Assembly (NCBI RefSeq): GCF_001854805.1
Contig: NZ_MBLO01000207.1
Span: forward strand, 1-62,951
Reading direction: 5' to 3'
Source of the DNA: Pseudofrankia coriaricola
Lineage (GTDB): Bacteria; Actinomycetota; Actinomycetes; Frankiales; Frankiaceae
Length of the DNA: 62,951 bases
Part shown: positions 955-52,415 of the stretch, piece by piece
Numbering within the stretch: position 1 is the stretch's first letter
Layout: each line of letters begins with the position of its first letter
Made by a program: the position numbers and the translations under genes
Notes under the pieces: model-generated
What the model was told of the DNA's origin: nothing
What the model saw: the letters and a program-made list of their open reading frames with translations, nothing else
The model's database searches: none

Positions 955-1030
955 CTGTGCGGCGGCGGGTGACCATGCGGCGCGTAGGCGTGCCTCCGCG
1001 GAGGCCCGTTCACGAGCGAGCGAGGTGTCA
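955..1030 (+). repeat. Partial copy of the R1 dispersed repeat
   Basis: The stretch carries the R1 left-part signature (gcgggtgacc, then gcgtgcctccgcggaggccc and cacgagcgagcgag) and then breaks off. It is directly followed by the full copy starting at 1048. It looks like a truncated tandem copy. Confidence 0.6.
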
Positions 1031-1047: not shown

Positions 1048-1264
1048 GCTTCGGGTTGGTGACGTTGCGCGGCAGGTGACCGCGCTGGCGCGCAGGCGTG
1101 CCTCCGCGGAGGCCCGGCCCACGAGCGAAGCGAAGTGGGTTGGACCGCAGCGGAGGTCGCCGGAGCGCACGTGAGCGGAGGAGGACGGCGCGCGGAGGTC
1201 CCTTCCGCCGCGAAGCAAGGAAGGGGCCGGAGCGCGCCGCCCGGACGGAGCGAACCAGAGACAC
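1048..1264 (+). repeat. R1 dispersed structured repeat, copy 1
   Basis: This roughly 215-nt unit recurs at 39636-39853 (inverted), 39998-40208 and 42697-42906. It begins with cttcgggttggtgacg and ends with gacggagcgaaccagaga. Hairpin 1 pairs CCCAC with GTGGG around a GAGCGAAGCGAA loop (about 1119-1140). The nested hairpin 2 has an outer stem GGCGCGC (1187-1193) with GCGCGCC (1232-1238) and an inner stem CCCTTCC (1200-1206) with GGAAGGG (1219-1225). Both stems change in compensating ways in the other copies. It fills the gap between the TfoX gene and the 3' end of the CBS gene. No coding function is apparent. Confidence 0.8.
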
Positions 1265-1266
1265 GG

Positions 1267-1710
1267 TCAGCCGACGCGGTCCGCGGGGCCGGACTTCACC
1301 GCCTCGACGAGGTGGCTGATCTGGGACTCGCTGAGCTTGCCGCAGCTGGCCAGGTCGGCCTCGCTGATCATCCCGACCAGGCGGTGGTCCTCGATGACCG
1401 GCATCCGCTGGATGCGGTGCTCGCTCATGCGCTGCAGGACCTCGTCCACGTCGGCGCCCGCGTCGACGTAGAACGGCTTGCCCTGGGCGAGCTGGCTCGC
1501 GGGTGTCGTCGCCGGGTCGGAGCCGGCCGCGACACAGCGCACCACGATGTCGCGGTCGGTGATGATCCCCTGCAGCCGGTCGTCCTCGCCGCAGATCGGC
1601 AGCGCGCCGACACCCAGGTCGCGCATCTTGCGGGCGGCGTCCTGGAGCGTCTGGCTCGCGCCGATGCAGGTGGCGTCGGGATGCATGATCTCGCGTGCGG
1701 TCGTCGTCAT
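1267..1710 (-). CDS. CBS-domain pair protein (Hrp1/YrbE-like stand-alone CBS protein)
   Basis: About 147 residues made almost entirely of two CBS motifs. The first has AREIMHPDATCIGASQTLQDAA...LGVGALPI and LQGIITDRDIVV; the second has VDEVLQRMSEHRIQRMPVIED and LVGMISEADLAS. Stand-alone CBS pairs bind adenosine nucleotides and often respond to stress or hypoxia in actinobacteria; no enzymatic domain is present. GTG at 1713 and ATG at 1710 are adjacent. ATG is preferred because GAGAGG lies 6 nt upstream. The 3' end abuts the R1 repeat. The fold is certain, the physiological role unknown. Confidence 0.88.
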   Translation of the reverse strand: MTTTAREIMHPDATCIGASQTLQDAARKMRDLGVGALPICGEDDRLQGIITDRDIVVRCVAAGSDPATTPASQLAQGKPFYVDAGADVDEVLQRMSEHRIQRMPVIEDHRLVGMISEADLASCGKLSESQISHLVEAVKSGPADRVG

Positions 1711-2090
1711 CACGGTCCTCTCGTTGACGCGTGGTCACCGCGGACGCGAGCACCGTTCCCAGCCGCGTCCTCGCACGGGGCCACTCGGATGGCCGGCCGG
1801 CCGGCGCGGGCACGGTCGCCGTTGGCCGCGCCCCGGGGCCGCCCTTGTGTCGGTCGACAGCGCCGGTCGGCCGCCGGCCGCCCGTCGCCGAGACGCCGGT
1901 GAGGACCTGCGCCCCGGGCAGGCCATCCCTCGGATGACCGAGGCGCGGCGGGCCGGCTGGCCGCCACCTGCATACCCGCTCGCCCCGCTCACAAGCCCCG
2001 CCACCCGGGACGTTGATCGCTCTACGCGGCCCCGCGCGGTGTGATCTCACCCGCGGTCACTGTGATCCGCGGCGGCGACGAAAGACCGAA
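1711..2090. other. Intergenic region, 380 bp, no gene seen
   Basis: The region lies upstream of the CBS gene and downstream of the FtsX permease, both on the minus strand. No convincing reading frame, RNA gene or long inverted repeat was found. It should contain the CBS gene promoter, but none is evident by eye. Confidence 0.5.
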
Positions 2091-4580: not shown

Positions 4581-5401
4581 CCGGCCAGCGACCTGGTCCG
4601 GCCGTCGCGGACGACGACCTCCCGGTCGGAGTAGGCCGCGACCCGGGCGTCGTGGGTGACGAGCACGACCGCCGTGGCCGCCTCCCGGGCGGCCTGGGTG
4701 AGCAGGCGCATCACCTCCTCGCCGTTGAGCGAGTCCAGCGCCCCGGTCGGCTCGTCCGCGAAGATCACCCTGGGCTCGGTGACGAGCGCCCTGGCGACGG
4801 CGACCCGCTGGCCCTGCCCGCCGGACACCTCGCCGGGCCGCTTGCCGGCGACGTCGTCGACGCCGAGCCGCGCCAGCTGCGCCCGCGCGCGCTCGCGGGC
4901 CGCGCGGCGGCCGACCCCGCCCAGACGCAGCGGCAGCGCGACGTTCTCCGCGCAGGTCAGCTCGGGGACGAGCTGGCCGAACTGGAACACGAAGCCGAAC
5001 TCGCCCCGCCGCAGCGCGCTGCGGCCCGCCTCCGACATCGCCGACAGCCGCCGCGTCCCGTAGTGGACCTCGCCGGCGTCGGGGCCGATGATGCCGGCCA
5101 GGCAGTGCAGCAGCGTCGACTTGCCCGAGCCGCTCGGCCCCATCAGCGCGACGATCTCGCCCGCGTCGACGCGCAGGCTCGCCCCGTCGAGCGCCGGCGT
5201 CGCCCCAAACCTCTTGCGCAGCTCCACGGCGGCGAGCAGGGCGCCTGACGTTCCCGAGGGGTCCGCCGGCCCGGCCAGGCCCACCCTGGCCGGCCCCGTG
5301 CCTGGCGCGCCGGCCGACGCCGCGGACGCCGCGGACGCCGCGGACGCCGCGGACGCCGCGGACGCCGCCACGGCGCGGGCGGACGGGTCGCGGGGGGTCA
5401 T
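4577..5401 (-). CDS. ABC transporter ATP-binding protein (MacB/LolD family)
   Basis: A 274-residue ATPase that energises the downstream FtsX-type permease. Visible motifs are Walker A GPSGSGKST, the Q-loop FVFQFGQ, the signature VSGGQGQRVAVARAL, Walker B VIFADEPTGALDS and the H-loop VTHD. This set and the length fit the LolD/MacB class. The first 50 residues are low complexity, including an Ala-Ala-Ser run encoded by a 9-bp tandem repeat. The ABC domain proper begins near AAVELRKRFGA. Its ATG overlaps the padR stop by 4 nt, and its own stop overlaps the permease start by 4 nt, giving one tightly coupled operon under the PadR regulator. Confidence 0.93.
   Translation of the reverse strand: MTPRDPSARAVAASAASAASAASAASAASAGAPGTGPARVGLAGPADPSGTSGALLAAVELRKRFGATPALDGASLRVDAGEIVALMGPSGSGKSTLLHCLAGIIGPDAGEVHYGTRRLSAMSEAGRSALRRGEFGFVFQFGQLVPELTCAENVALPLRLGGVGRRAARERARAQLARLGVDDVAGKRPGEVSGGQGQRVAVARALVTEPRVIFADEPTGALDSLNGEEVMRLLTQAAREAATAVVLVTHDARVAAYSDREVVVRDGRTRSLAG
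5316..5369. repeat. 9-bp tandem repeat (six units) inside the ABC ATPase gene
   Basis: Five perfect units of gacgccgcg and a sixth differing in the last base run head to tail. They encode an Ala-Ala-Ser series near the N-terminus of the ATPase. The unit length is a multiple of three, so gain or loss of units keeps the frame. Confidence 0.9.
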
Positions 5402-33479: not shown

Positions 33480-35320
33480 CGGCCGGTCTCGTAGCCGCCT
33501 GTCTCGTAGCGGCCGTCGTAACGGTCCACCTCGTAGGCCTCACGGCCGTCCTGGTCGCCTCGGGCGTCATCCGGCCGGTAGCCGGAGCGGGGCGCCGGGC
33601 GCGGCTGGTAGCCGCCTTCTGGAGCGCCGTAGCCGTTGGGGACGCCGTACGACTCGGTGTCGTCGGGCGGGTAGCCGCCCCGTGGGTAGTGGCCGTTCGG
33701 CTCCTCGCCGTAGCCGGCGTGGCTGTAGCCGTCGGCCGGCGCGTACCCACTGGCCGGGGGACCGTAGCCGTCGGGGTAGGGGCCGGGCTCCCCGTAGGGG
33801 TCGATCTGGACGGGGCCGTCGTCCCCGCCGTAGCCGCGGCGCGGGCCCGGCGGACCCGGCTCGCGAGGGGCACCGGTGTCGCGGCGGTACGGGGCGCGCC
33901 AGGGTGGCTGCTGCTCGCCCGCGGGCGGCCCGGGCGCCGGGTAGCCGGTGGTGTCCTCGCCGGCCGGGTAGCCGCCGACCGGCTCCGCGGGCGGATAGCC
34001 GCCGCTCGGCTCGCCGGCCGGGTATCCGCTCGGCTCGGCGGGCGGGTAGCCGCCCGTGGCCCGCCGCGGCGGCGGGTAGCCCTCGGCGCCGTGCCTGGCC
34101 AGCGGGAACTCGTCGGTCTCCTCGACCACCGGATACCCATCGGCACCGCGGGCCGGCGGCGGCCCGCCCCGCCCGGCGCCGAGGTCGGGCCGGGCCGGGC
34201 CGCGGCCGTCGCGCGCGGGCCCGGTGCCGCGCCGGTAGCCGGGATCCGCGTACCCACCGGCCCCGGCCCCGGCCCCGGCACCTGCTCCGGTGCCGCGCCG
34301 ACCCGTGGCGGGACCGGGGCCGGTGGGTACGCGGGCGGCGTTCGCGCCCGTCGCCGACCGTCGCCCCTCGCCCGGGGGCGGCATCGTGGGCCGGCGCCGC
34401 GTCGGCGGGCGCTCGCCGTCGTCCCAGCCCGCGCGGCCGCCGTCGTCTCGCCCGCCGCCGGTGTCGCGGCGGGCGGGCGCGCCGTCGCGGCCGGCCGCGC
34501 GCGGCGCGGTGGTGCCCCGGCGGGACGGGCGGCCGCGGCCCGGCTGGTCCAGGTTCTTCATCCGGTCGAGCACCGCGTCCGCGGTCGGCTCGAGCATCGT
34601 GTCCACGATCCGGCCGTCCGCGAGGAAGATCACTTCGTCGGCGTAGGAGGCGGCCTTCGGGTCGTGGGTGACCATCACCACGGTCTGGCCGAGCTCGCGC
34701 ACCGAGTCCCGCAGGAACGACAGGACCTCGGCGCCGGAGGCGCTGTCCAGGTTGCCGGTCGGCTCGTCGCCGAAGATGATGTCCGGCCGGGTGATCAGTG
34801 CCCGGGCGCAGGCGACCCGCTGCTGCTGGCCGCCGGACAACTCGGTCGGCTTGTGGTTCAGCCGCGGGGCCAGGCCCACCGCGTCGACGACCAGCTGCAT
34901 CCACTTCTTGTCCGCCCGACGCCCGGCGATGTCGAGGGGCAGCGTGATGTTCTCCGCCGCGGTCAGCGTCGGCAGCAGGTTGAACTGCTGGAAGATGAAG
35001 CCGATCCGGTCGCGGCGCAGCTGGGTGAGCTGCCGGTCCGACAGGCGCGAGAGCTCCACGTCGCCGATGAACACCCGGCCGCCGCTGACCGTGTCGAGGC
35101 CGGCCAGGCAGTGCATCAGCGTCGACTTGCCCGAACCGGACGGCCCCATGATCGCCGTGAACCGGCCGCGGGGGAAGTCCAGGTCGATGCCGCGCAGCGC
35201 GGACACCTCGGTGTCCCCGGAGCCATAGACCTTCGTCAGCCGCTCCGCCCGGGCGGCCAGGCGCGGCCCACCCGAACGGCCCGCCGCGGTGTCGGCGGCC
35301 CGTCCGCGCACTGGGCTCAT
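33470..35320 (-). CDS. ABC transporter ATP-binding protein with long disordered Gly/Pro/Tyr-rich tail
   Basis: 616 residues, more than twice the usual 230-250. Residues 22-245 are a complete MacB/LolD-type ATPase: Walker A GPSGSGKST, GFIFQQFNLLPTL, signature LSGGQQQRVACARAL, Walker B IIFGDEPTGNLDS and VMVTHD. From about residue 260 the chain is low complexity: Arg/Gly-rich first, then many Gly-Tyr-Pro units (GGYPPAEPVGGYPAGE, NGHYPRGGYPPDD), ending YETGGYETGRWT. The reading frame is open throughout and overlaps the permease start by 10 nt, so the tail is real coding sequence and not a frameshift. The tail may tether partners or phase-separate; its function is unknown. Confidence 0.88.
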   Translation of the reverse strand: MSPVRGRAADTAAGRSGGPRLAARAERLTKVYGSGDTEVSALRGIDLDFPRGRFTAIMGPSGSGKSTLMHCLAGLDTVSGGRVFIGDVELSRLSDRQLTQLRRDRIGFIFQQFNLLPTLTAAENITLPLDIAGRRADKKWMQLVVDAVGLAPRLNHKPTELSGGQQQRVACARALITRPDIIFGDEPTGNLDSASGAEVLSFLRDSVRELGQTVVMVTHDPKAASYADEVIFLADGRIVDTMLEPTADAVLDRMKNLDQPGRGRPSRRGTTAPRAAGRDGAPARRDTGGGRDDGGRAGWDDGERPPTRRRPTMPPPGEGRRSATGANAARVPTGPGPATGRRGTGAGAGAGAGAGGYADPGYRRGTGPARDGRGPARPDLGAGRGGPPPARGADGYPVVEETDEFPLARHGAEGYPPPRRATGGYPPAEPSGYPAGEPSGGYPPAEPVGGYPAGEDTTGYPAPGPPAGEQQPPWRAPYRRDTGAPREPGPPGPRRGYGGDDGPVQIDPYGEPGPYPDGYGPPASGYAPADGYSHAGYGEEPNGHYPRGGYPPDDTESYGVPNGYGAPEGGYQPRPAPRSGYRPDDARGDQDGREAYEVDRYDGRYETGGYETGRWT

Positions 35321-39579: not shown

Positions 39580-39635
39580 CACAGGGAACTAACCCGGGAC
39601 CTCGGAGGACAGAGACGGGGTCGGCGCAGAAGGCT

Positions 39636-39853
39636 GTGTCTCTGGTTCGCTCCGTGCGGACACGGCCCTCCGGCAGCCCGCTCGCCTGGCGGCTCGCGGG
39701 CTACCTCCGGGCCGTGTCCTCCTCCGCGAACGTGCGCTGCGGCGACCTCCGCTGCGGCCCCCCTACGTCGCTTCGCTCGTAGGAGGGCCTCCGCGGAGGC
39801 GCGCCTCCGCGCCAGCTCGGTCGCCTGCCGCTGTGACGTCACCAAGCCAAGAC
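39636..39853 (-). repeat. R1 dispersed structured repeat, copy 2 (inverted)
   Basis: It is the reverse complement of the R1 consensus: the ending tctctggttcgctccg comes first at 39638 and the cttggtgacgtc head comes last. The stem sequences differ from other copies, but pairing is kept. The outer stem is GACACGGCCC (39659-39668) with GGGCCGTGTC (39709-39718). The inner stem is AGCCCGC (39675-39681) with GCGGGCT (39696-39702). Hairpin 1 is CCTAC (39762-39766) with GTAGG (39779-39783). It faces copy 3 across a 144-bp spacer. Confidence 0.8.
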
Positions 39854-39888
39854 CGACCCCCGAACCGTAGCCAGATCTTCGCGGGAGC

Positions 39889-39979
39889 CACGTCGCTTCG
39901 CTCGTGGAACGTCTGGATCGGTGCTGGTCGCGTTCCGTGCCGATCAGGCGCGAAGGCCGTCCACGAGCGAAGCGACGTG
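39889..39979. repeat. 19-bp perfect inverted repeat between R1 copies 2 and 3
   Basis: CACGTCGCTTCGCTCGTGG (39889-39907) and its exact reverse complement (39961-39979) flank 53 bp. Each arm contains the R1 loop signature GAGCGAAGCGA, so these are probably R1 hairpin-1 fragments mirrored around the centre of the repeat cluster. Confidence 0.8.
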
Positions 39980-39997
39980 CCCCCACCGAGACAGCAG

Positions 39998-40208
39998 CTT
40001 CGGGCTCGCGACCTACAGCGGGACGCAACCGGGCTGGGCGCGGAGGCGCGCCTCGCGGAGGCTCTCCTACGAGCGAAGCGACGTAGGGGGGCCGCAGCGA
40101 GGTCGCCGGAGCGCCCGTGAGCGCAGGAGGACGGCGCGCGGAGGCCCCTTGGGAGCGAAGCGAGTAAGGGGCCGGAGCGCGCCGCCCGGACGGAGCGAAC
40201 CAGAGATA
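39998..40208 (+). repeat. R1 dispersed structured repeat, copy 3
   Basis: Hairpin 1 is CCTAC/GTAGG around GAGCGAAGCGAC (about 40066-40087). The outer stem is GGCGCGC (40133-40139) with GCGCGCC (40077-shifted partner at 40177-40183). The inner stem is CCCCTT (40145-40150) with AAGGGG (40166-40171). It ends gacggagcgaaccagaga at about 40208. Together with copy 2 it fills the roughly 700 bp between trmI and the ferredoxin gene, where no gene was found. Confidence 0.8.
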
Positions 40209-40276
40209 CAGCCCCAGCTGGCGAGGCGCGGACCCGGCGGGCAGAGTGAGGACCCATGCGGCACGGGAGGCGGGCG

Positions 40277-42608: not shown

Positions 42609-42682
42609 GGTAGTTGGTGACGTGCAGCAGCGGGTGGCCGTGCGGGCGTGGAGGGCTCGGCACCGAGCGCAGCGAAGGAAAC
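42609..42682 (+). repeat. Partial R1 copy
   Basis: The stretch tagttggtgacgtgcagcag followed by gggtggccgtgcgggcgtgg and gagcgcagcgaagg matches the R1 left part, then stops. It precedes the full copy 4, mirroring the truncated-plus-full arrangement seen at 955-1264. Confidence 0.55.
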
Positions 42683-42696
42683 GCACGGACGAGGCC

Positions 42697-42906
42697 ACTT
42701 CGGATTGGTGACGTTCAGCGGTAGGTGACCGTGCGGGCGCGGAGGCGCGCCTCGCGGAGGCCCGGCCCACGAGCGCAGCGAAGTGGGTTGGGCCGCAGCG
42801 AGGTCGCCGTAGCGCCCTGTTCGCGGAGGAGGACGCCGCGCGGAGGTCCCGTGGGAGCGAAGCGAGTACGGGGCCGGAGCGCGGCGCCCGGACGGAGCGA
42901 ACCAAT
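42697..42906 (+). repeat. R1 dispersed structured repeat, copy 4
   Basis: It starts acttcggattggtgacgttc. Hairpin 1 is CCCAC/GTGGG with a GAGCGCAGCGAA loop. The outer stem is GCCGCGC (42835-42841) with GCGCGGC (42879-42885). The inner stem is CCCGT (42848-42852) with ACGGG (42868-42872). It ends gacggagcgaacca at about 42904, some 55 bp before the dop start, so it lies in the dop leader or promoter region. Confidence 0.8.
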
Positions 42907-42962
42907 AAAACTGCGGGGCTGTCTGGCCGACCAACCGGCCGCCGACCGCCTACGCTGACAGA

Positions 42963-44480
42963 GTGAGCGTTCGCCGGATCATGGGTGTGGAGACCGAGTA
43001 CGGCGTCTCGGTGCCTGGTCAGCCCAACACCAACCAGATGCTCGCCTCGTCGTTGGTGGTGAACTCGTATGCCAACCGGACGGCCAGCGGCGGCAGCCGG
43101 GCCCGCTGGGACTTCGAGGAGGAGTCCCCGCTGCGGGACGCACGCGGCTTCGAGACGCCACGCGAGCCCGTCGTCGACCCGTCCGCGCCCGCCAACGAGG
43201 ACGACCTGGGCCTGGCGAACGTCATCCTGACCAACGGCGCCCGGTTCTACGTCGACCACGCCCATCCCGAGTACTCCGCCCCCGAGTGCACCAACCCACG
43301 CGACGTGGTGCTCTGGGACAAGTCCGGCGAGCGGGTCATGGCCGAGGCCGCGCGGCGCGCCCTGCACGTCCCCGGCACCTACCCGGTGCACCTCTACAAG
43401 AACAACACCGACAACAAGGGCGTCTCCTACGGCTGCCACGAGAACTACCTCATGGCCCGGTCGACCCCCTTCGGCGAGATCGTCCGCAACCTCACCCCGT
43501 TCTTCGTCACCCGCCAGGTCTTCTGCGGCGCCGGCCGTGTCGGTGTCGGCGTCGACGGCCGCACCGCCGGCTACCAGCTCAGCCAGCGCGCCGACTTCTT
43601 CGAGGTCGAGGTCGGGCTCGAGACCACCCTGAAACGCCCCATCATCAACACCCGCGACGAGCCGCACGCCGACCCGGAGAAGTACCGCCGGCTGCACGTC
43701 ATCATCGGCGACGCCAACATGAGCGAGATCGCCACCTATCTCAAGGTCGGCACCACCGCGCTCGTGCTGTCGATGATCGAGGACAGCTGGCTCACCGTCG
43801 ACCTGTCCGTCGACGGGCCGGTCGCCGCCCTGCGGGCCGTCTCCCACGACCCGAGCCTTCGCCACCTGGTCACCCTGCGCGACGGGCGGAGGATGACCGC
43901 CATCCAGCTGCAGATGGAGTACCTCGAACAGGCCCGCAAGTACGTCGAGGACCGCTACGGCACGGACGCCGACGCGCAGACCGTCGACATCCTCGCCCGC
44001 TGGGAGTCCGTTCTCACCCGGCTCGAGGACGACCCGATGACCTGCGCCCGCGAGCTCGACTGGGTCGCCAAGCTCTCCATCGCCGAGGGCTACCGCACCC
44101 GCGACAACCTGCCCTGGAACGACCCGCGGCTCCAGCTCGTCGACCTGCAGTACCACGACGTCCGCGCCGACAAAGGCCTTTACAACCGGCTCGTCGCCCG
44201 CGGCCGGATGGACCGGCTCGTCACCGAGGACGACGTCGTGCGCTCCATGACCGAGCCCCCCGAGGACACCAGGGCCTACTTCCGCGGCCGTTGCCTCGCG
44301 CAGTACCCGCAGCAGGTCGCCGCCGCCAGCTGGGATTCGGTCATCTTCGACATCGGCCGCGACTCCCTGCAGCGCGTCCCGACCTTGGAGCCGCTGCGCG
44401 GCACCAAGAGCCACGTCGGCGCCCTGCTGGAGCGCTGCCGCACCGCCGCCGAGCTCGTCGACGCCCTCTCCGGCAAATAA
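42963..44480 (+). CDS. dop: Depupylase / Pup deamidase Dop
   Basis: 505 residues starting at GTG 42963. Dop removes Pup from substrates and, where Pup ends in Gln, deamidates it. It has the carboxylate-amine ligase fold: [15 protein letters not shown] (ATP/Mg site), [17 protein letters not shown] with the catalytic Asp, [31 protein letters not shown] and [14 protein letters not shown]. The Dop-specific loop after residue 40 ([20 protein letters not shown]) distinguishes it from PafA encoded at 51057. Because this Pup ends in Glu, only the depupylase function seems needed here. An R1 repeat lies upstream and a strong terminator follows the stop. Confidence 0.97.
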
Positions 44481-51056: not shown

Positions 51057-52415
51057 GTGGATCGCCGCATCTTCGGCCTGGAGAACGAGTACGGCGTCAC
51101 CTGCGTGTTCCGCGGCCAGCGGCGGCTGAGCCCGGACGAGGTGGCCCGTTACCTGTTCCGGCGGGTCGTGTCCTGGGGCCGCAGCAGCAACGTGTTCCTG
51201 AAGAACGGGGCGCGCCTCTACCTGGACGTGGGCAGCCACCCCGAGTACGCCACACCGGAATGCGACTCCGTGCCCGACCTCGTCACCCACGACAAGGCCG
51301 GGGAGCGCATCCTGGAGGGCCTGCTGGTGGAGGCCGAGCGGCGGCTGCGCGAGGAGGGCATCGCCGGCGACATCCACCTGTTCAAGAACAACACCGACTC
51401 GGCGGGCAACAGCTACGGCTGCCACGAGAACTACCTGGTCGGCCGGCACGGCGAGTTCTCCCGGCTCGCCGACGTGCTGGTCCCGTTCCTCGTGAGCCGC
51501 CAGATCCTCTGCGGGGCCGGCAAGGTGCTGCAGACGCCGCGCGGCGCGGTCTACTGCATCTCCCAGCGGGCCGAGCACATCTGGGAGTCGGTGTCGAGCG
51601 CGACGACCCGGTCGCGCCCGATCATCAACACCCGCGACGAGCCGCACGCGGACGCCGAGCGCTTCCGCCGGCTGCATGTCATCGTCGGCGACTCGAACAT
51701 GTCCGAGACGACGATGCTGCTCAAGGTCGGCGCGACGGACCTGGTGCTGCGCATGGTCGAGGCGGGCGTCGTGCTGCGTGACATGACGCTGGAGAACCCG
51801 ATCCGCGCCATCCGCGAGGTCAGCCACGACATGACCTGCCAGCGCAAGATCCGGCTGGCGAACGGACGGGAGGTCAGCGCGCTCGACATCCAGCGGGAGT
51901 ACTACGCCAAGGCGGTGGAGTTCGTCGACCGCCGCGGCGGTGACGCGGTCGCGAAGCGGGTGCTCGACCTGTGGGGCCGTACGCTGCTGGCGATCGAGAC
52001 CGACGACCTGGAGCTGGTCGCCCGGGAGATCGACTGGGTGACGAAGTACGTGCTCATCGATCGTTTCCGCGCCCGCCACGACGTGTCGCTGGCCTCGCCG
52101 CGGGTCGCCGAGCTCGACCTGAAGTACCACGACATCCACCGCGAGCGCGGGCTGTACTACCGGATGGAGAAGGCGGGGCTCGTCGAGCGGGTCACCCGTG
52201 ACCTGGACATCTTCGAGGCGAAGTCGAAGCCGCCGCAGACCACCCGGGCGCGGCTGCGCGGCGAGTTCATCAAGCGGGCGCAGGAGAAGCGCCGCGACTT
52301 CACCGTCGACTGGGTCCATCTCAAGCTCAACGACCAGGCCCAGCGCACGGTCCTGTGCAAGGACCCGTTCCGCTCCGTCGACGACCGCGTCGACAAGCTG
52401 ATCGCGTCCATGTAG
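51057..52415 (+). CDS. pafA: Pup-protein ligase PafA
   Basis: 452 residues. PafA uses ATP to join the C-terminal Glu of Pup to substrate lysines. Its sequence shows [16 protein letters not shown] (catalytic ATP/Mg Glu), [18 protein letters not shown] with the catalytic Asp, [39 protein letters not shown] and [12 protein letters not shown]. It lacks the Dop loop and ends with the C-terminal domain [24 protein letters not shown] that contacts Pup. It is a paralogue of dop in this window. GTG at 51057 matches the family N-terminus. An R2 repeat follows its stop, as it does for dop. Confidence 0.97.

Follow-up and report, generated by a model that had tools for sequence, protein, structure and literature searches.

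R1, a repeat of about 215 bp scattered through the genome of Pseudofrankia coriaricola, is in our preferred reading, which we hold with about even confidence, one arm of a non-coding and modular element, non-autonomous and either mobile or recombining, in which the plus strand would adopt its fold as single-stranded DNA and copies would be exchanged between sites. The complete element consists of two inverted arms with their 3' ends pointing outward, a centre that is usually 80-150 bp long and, optionally, short A units between the arms; as far as searched, it is confined to a single genus of soil-dwelling actinobacteria. The plus strand of each arm can form a covarying fold of two hairpins, predicted stability is biased towards that strand, the loops follow a GNA/GNNA grammar, and sites that genomes have in common hold differing contents. 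The window analysed here, 62,951 nucleotides that make up contig 207 of the 11.2-Mb assembly, contains four full units, and taken singly it hid this larger picture of arms belonging to a two-arm modular element with about 100 copies, whose sequence turns over between species.

To our knowledge, there are few dispersed repeats in bacteria whose pairing is preserved, pair by pair, on a single defined strand, and listings of open-access papers on Frankia or Pseudofrankia repeats showed no description of R1. Frankia repeats longer than 500 nt have served to locate insertion sequences in a study that included two strains of the Pseudofrankia group (available part of PMC4447401). If the single-stranded DNA fold is indeed read, one genome would offer around 100 natural substrates for finding the enzyme, and the pattern of presence and absence within the genus would help to look for it. 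Furthermore, because sites keep the element and not its sequence, the rate of exchange between dispersed copies could be measured.

Distribution within the genus

Searched by blastn against its own genome, the copy at 1048-1264 returned at least 92 matches (40 of 249 candidates scored), and a covariance model returned 121 (150 candidates scored), of which seven weaker ones were left out of the fetched copy set. Among the matches listed, the model detected R1 in seven of the eight genomes of the genus (the Pseudofrankia group), with at least 71 matches in G006, 65 in G005, 37 in G004, 24 in G002, 16 in G003 and nine in G001, and none in G007. It likewise listed no match in 27 other genomes of the family or, under stricter filters, in 23 further genomes of the class. 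A scan of 84,980 species genomes for an exact pattern yielded 50 stretches, which come exclusively from Pseudofrankia asymbiotica, Frankia nepalensis CN7 and Frankia sp. AgB1.9; it is incomplete as a census, having missed three more R1-bearing genomes of the genus. Viral contigs (exact pattern) and plasmids and phages (blastn) gave no R1 match.

Within G006, the 8.19-Mb sequence C1 holds 53 of that genome's 71 R1 matches, among those listed, and includes an element-poor arc at about 2.91-6.42 Mb, in which one match is listed over 3.5 Mb. In the P. coriaricola assembly, contigs 24, 30, 210, 238 and 261 have an end near an R1 unit, and the repeat may therefore interrupt the assembly.

Architecture of the element

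All four long copies named in the original prediction lie where it had placed them, with borders that we refine to 1049-1264 (plus strand), 39635-39852 (minus), 39998-40210 (plus) and 42698-42912 (plus). The first, a single arm found by blastn, covariance model and HMM alike, adjoins with its 3' end (GAACCA) the end of a convergent CBS-domain gene (ORF 1267-1713, minus strand), and on its inner side lies a short A unit at 959-1027 (plus strand; nhmmer match to model positions 20-91), which comprises the 5' part of a unit only. The second and third, both matched by the HMM, are the left and right arms of a two-arm element set between convergent trmI-like and ferredoxin genes; its centre, at 39853-39997, comprises two facing small hairpins with GCGAAGC, and a similar core recurs in several other arrays. 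The fourth, again a single arm matched by the HMM, sits between a proteasomal ATPase gene and a Pup-ligase-family gene, preceded by a degenerate A unit at 42612-42693 (plus strand) that was recognised by eye and not reported by the HMM.

The same plan extends across the genome. Run on 67 sequences from P. coriaricola, the HMM found 185 units, full or partial, of which 108 span more than 150 model positions. Arrays that include a full unit number 73, with units on both strands in 38 and on one strand in 35. Full units occur on both strands in 34 arrays, and every plus full unit in these stands to the right of the minus ones, which means that 3' ends point outward; only partial units (in L010 and L147) break this order. 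The short A units match the 5' part of the model alone and mostly lie on the inner side, and the 41 centres span 0-765 bp, with the core in either orientation. Units end in one of two kinds of tail, ..GAACCAGNAACACAG and ..ACAACCTTCCCGCCCGACCCCG. At the outer ends of five loci (L012, L147, L153, L158 and L166), tandem repeats of the 3' motif GCGAACCAGNAACACA continue past the unit.

A fold kept by paired changes

RNAalifold predicts two long hairpins on one strand from 58 of 60 aligned copies, two chimeric copies having been left out. Mapped from this alignment onto the first unit of the window, hairpin 1 occupies 1088-1168 (plus strand) and is built of an outer stem, a GNA/GNA internal loop, an inner stem and an apical GCGAAGC, and hairpin 2 occupies 1186-1239 (plus strand), with the outer stem CGGCGCGC/GCGCGCCG, a GGA/GGA internal loop, an inner stem and again an apical GCGAAGC. 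The stem variants listed in the original prediction are indeed present in the four long copies of the window. Its constant GCGAAGC loop is the general rule, with two exceptions: hairpin 2 of the inverted copy (39635-39852) reads GCCGCCAGGC, a loop of the GCCA type, and hairpin 1 of the copy at 42698 reads GCGCAGC. What had been taken for an unpaired GGAGGT/CCGGA is rather a symmetric 3x3 internal loop, GNA/GNA, together with GG/CC pairs and a T that is either bulged or wobble-paired.

For the 46 pairs in the 58 copies, the share of paired cells is 98.9% (shuffles: 91.4 +/- 0.3), and the number of cells with changes on both sides is 185 (shuffles: 65 +/- 5). Neither value is reached in any of 500 shuffles, in a comparison that ignores the relatedness of the copies and takes its structure from the same 58. 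Slid by one to three columns, the structure retains between one and 20 cells changed on both sides. The two hairpins are thus supported by covariation above both kinds of control. The covariance model built from the 58 copies has 165 positions. A single copy also folds better than its own shuffles (z -3.8, with 0/200 as good).

Individual stems tell the same story. The outer stem of hairpin 2, seven base pairs long and present in many versions, has every pair intact in 94 of the 100 P. coriaricola copies that could be read (of 103) and in 59 of the 63 that could be read in the relatives (of 72). In hairpin 1, a one-base deletion that turns CCTCCGC into CCTCGC in one arm is answered by one that turns GCGGAGG into GCGAGG in the other, and among the 58 copies 22 carry both deletions, 36 neither, and none a deletion in one arm alone. 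Moreover, G001 and G002 contain a second subfamily, which follows the same plan with different stems in hairpin 1, the same kinds of loop and a similar 3' end; its 12 copies show changes on both sides in 19 of 57 pairs, and a further stem closes its hairpin 2. In five variants of 204 nt (L182, L189, L190, L191 and L192), the loop of hairpin 2 contains one more nested stem, which again ends in a GAA loop.

Covariation, the excess of G·T over A·C pairs described below and the second subfamily together support a maintained single-strand fold, RNA or single-stranded DNA, as had been proposed from the window. Since the stems change in pairs, R1 is unlikely to be the remnant of a protein-coding sequence.

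Strand, loops and the choice between DNA and RNA

Wobble pairs fall on one strand. Over 45 pairs, G·T outnumbers A·C by 217 to 7 in P. coriaricola and by 133 to 10 in the relatives, a tally that leaves out two column pairs that are mostly G·T, and may not be true pairs, and keeps two more in which G·T is frequent. If one counts instead the column pairs that have three or more such cells, the split is nine to none and eight to one, respectively. Cytosine deamination on an exposed strand could account for this excess instead of selection. Predicted stability, with RNA and with DNA parameters, is greater for the plus strand than for its complement in all 103 distinct P. coriaricola copies and all 72 from relatives.

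The loops are equally regular. In P. coriaricola the apical loop of hairpin 1, with A units included, is GNA in 151 of 160 cases (two nested), with three AAA, and that of hairpin 2 is GAA or GCCA in 115 of 116 (100 GAA, 15 GCCA); the relatives obey the same loop classes in 121 of 126 and 102 of 107, respectively, in a tally that counts places fetched twice as two. Neither the P. coriaricola nor the relatives' part of this apical-loop tally contains a GNRA tetraloop. Internal loops are mostly GNA on both sides, and their middle base is free, chiefly on the 3' side of hairpin 1 (GGA, GCA, GTA). RNA would be expected to prefer GNRA loops, but it too can form GNA loops, as well as internal loops that G·A closes. 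Hyperstable DNA mini-hairpins obey a rule by which a GNA or GNNA loop sits on two or more G-C pairs, and the GCGAAGC mini-hairpin melts at 78 C, according to the available part of PMC4686876. R1 has the same apical loops on two G-C pairs as d(GCGAAGC), which is described there as a building block of aptamers and not as a genomic repeat. Because the GNA/GNNA rule holds in R1 and the tally has no GNRA, apical and internal loops tilt the case towards DNA, short of settling it, and it is mainly on this loop rule that the DNA reading stands.

The main rival is a structured RNA, which we think somewhat unlikely: the plus strand would be transcribed, as a small RNA or as an element of an untranslated region, and the RNA fold would be under selection. 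Covariation and wobble pairs on one strand would fit this, as would RNA energies that are strongly biased between strands. Furthermore, at one site in five genomes, each a different species (P. coriaricola and G001 to G004), a unit in the same orientation precedes the same start codon, its 3' end running into the gene start, and the DNA upstream is scrambled; at some sites a unit makes up the whole leader of a gene, as an RNA element could. The loop classes described above, without a GNRA among those tallied, speak against RNA, and so does the position of the units among genes. With borders taken from a simple codon-usage caller and not from annotation, 64 of the 107 outer ends that have a called neighbour face a stop codon, and thus lie antisense to that gene, 33 of the 64 within 10 nt; among the 43 that face a start codon, 13 lie between -10 and +20 nt. 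By the same caller, single arms have a gene at a median distance of 10 nt outward and 81 nt inward, and those with both neighbours called comprise 14 in tandem sense, 10 in tandem antisense, eight convergent and two divergent arms, with similar scores (means of 183 and 189 bits in the two tandem classes). The fold is therefore kept even where neither flanking gene would transcribe the plus strand, as between the tandem genes that flank those 10 of 34 single arms. Rfam, finally, gives no match at gathering level in the window, which agrees with the earlier view that R1 belongs to no family that can be named, and around the first copy only one match at chance level (E 3.5).

Turnover at persistent sites

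One whole two-arm element is present twice in the P. coriaricola genome, at 95% identity over 549 bp between unrelated flanks, which favours our preferred reading; that no target-site duplication was seen by eye in this one recent pair of copies speaks against it. R1 presence varies between genomes at orthologous sites. The border between the ATPase and Pup-ligase genes, compared across P. coriaricola, G001, G002, G004, G005 and G006 (G003 and G007 being unreadable across it), carries a unit in P. coriaricola, one unit plus a degenerate one in G001, and none in G004, G005 and G006; G005 and G006 also differ from P. coriaricola at the left border. The corresponding interval in G002 (L135) holds only two inverted, collapsed R1 3' ends that form a short palindrome. 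At the L019 site a remnant of an R1 3' end, recognised by eye, persists in G005, which leaves no clean empty site, and such remnants blur the comparison of filled with empty sites, so that the borders of insertion are not fixed to the base.

Where sites are shared, their contents diverge. P. coriaricola and G005 have 17 sites in common, found in G005 by an exact hairpin-2 pattern and thus a non-random sample, with flanks mostly 90-97% identical (lowest 84%). For the 22 orthologous unit pairs at these sites (one row per place; duplicate loci, other genomes and the fragmentary L010 2392 row left out), core identity is 87.7%, against 86.7% for permuted partners, a value as high being reached in 105 of 2000 permutations. 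Paralogs within P. coriaricola are, at 88.6%, more alike than these orthologs, and the ortholog is the best P. coriaricola match in one of the 22 pairs. To judge from these identities, sites persist while their R1 contents appear to be exchanged or replaced, and R1 sequence is probably swapped between sites faster than species diverge. Gene conversion alone could produce this turnover.

Under the single-stranded DNA reading, the plus strand would be exposed and read as single-stranded DNA, and a putative recombination, replication or transposition enzyme, supplied in trans, would act on it; copies might then be exchanged between sites by that enzymatic route or by gene conversion. The position at gene borders may mean that insertions elsewhere are removed, or else that the element targets borders. 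We advance only tentatively, and with less confidence than the reading with which we began, the fuller proposal that a single-stranded DNA structure with G-N-A grammar, kept pair by pair, in apical and internal loops alike, is the substrate of a putative strand-specific recombination that reshuffles copies between fixed gene-border sites.

Mobility of a more familiar kind would follow if R1 were an ordinary MITE, derived from a DDE insertion sequence and akin to BOX or bcr1, with a structure incidental to terminal inverted repeats. The multi-copy, intergenic, modular and lineage-restricted character of R1 and its inverted arms all agree with this, and BOX elements are themselves modular and folded, as the accessible part of PMC3049150 describes. 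No target-site duplication, however, was seen by eye in the one recent pair of copies. Nor are arms of about 215 bp with internal hairpins simple terminal repeats, and R1 is visibly GC-rich, whereas MITEs are described as AT-rich with target duplications in the part of PMC3049150 available. We regard an ordinary MITE as improbable.

Less probable again is that no structure is selected, and that hairpin-templated (template-switch) mutation perfects palindromes which gene conversion then spreads, giving paired changes without function. Such hairpin-templated correction can also yield paired changes, which is a reservation on the covariation itself, and fast turnover at fixed sites along with many intact types of stem would suit a mutational engine. 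It leaves unexplained, however, the free middle base beside fixed G and A in the internal loops, the invariant unpaired segments, the shared plan of the second subfamily and the wobble on one strand.

RAYT is the transposase associated with REP/BIME elements, and mobilisation of R1 as a REP/BIME family by such a Y1 enzyme is contradicted and most improbable: R1 is palindromic and extragenic, with inverted unit pairs and strand-specific folding, but Y1_Tnp is absent from the seven R1-bearing genomes and present in R1-free G007 and G008. This candidate was set aside on a search with the Pfam model, which was positive in none of the seven and, as a control, in five of 14 known genomes. Among the nine genomes searched, Y1 transposases occur only on C610 of G007 and on C8 and C11 of G008. 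Y2 transposase (IS91/Helitron-like) was found in none of the nine, and the 14 control genomes were equally silent.

Likeness to known systems

The sites called attC in integrons act in the form of folded single-stranded DNA, in which the unpaired bases are conserved and the stems vary. As a folded DNA substrate, which is how R1 is proposed to work, attC would be its nearest counterpart, although R1 is dispersed over many contigs and not gathered in cassette arrays. Nearest in kind, by our comparison, would be BOX, bcr1 and REP/BIME. BOX of Streptococcus pneumoniae is likewise modular, intergenic, folded and almost limited to a narrow lineage, with about 100 copies and inner modules that vary in number (available parts of PMC3049150 and PMC2267715); it differs in having TIR and target duplications in an AT-rich genome (PMC3049150, in part), whereas R1 is GC-rich, with outward inverted arms, GNA loops and many paired changes. 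The bcr1 repeat of the Bacillus cereus group is also a lineage-specific, intergenic, folding repeat, of 147-167 in length, which we call similar (PMC2267715 and PMC3733652, from the parts available), but R1 stands apart by its pair of long hairpins with GNA loops, its A units and its arrangement in two-arm arrays. REP/BIME elements share with R1 their hairpins, inverted pairs and extragenic position, and yet REPs are 20-40 bp long and bear GTAG or CGTC tags (both from the accessible part of PMC3733652), against about 215 bp for R1, at whose ends no tag of the GTAG/CGTC type was recognised by eye.

Other observations

Reverse transcriptase occurs in all seven R1-bearing genomes and also in R1-free G008, and is absent from R1-free G007. 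On C1 of G002, reverse-transcriptase matches at six places have identical scores and the same reading-frame length, as an intron or comparable element that had spread recently would show. The window itself contains two further pairs of similar stretches: 4597-5149 and 34609-35155, alike in pieces at 71-88% identity, and 43560-43728 and 51540-51708, with 73% identity, the latter pair overlapping a Pup-ligase-family gene.
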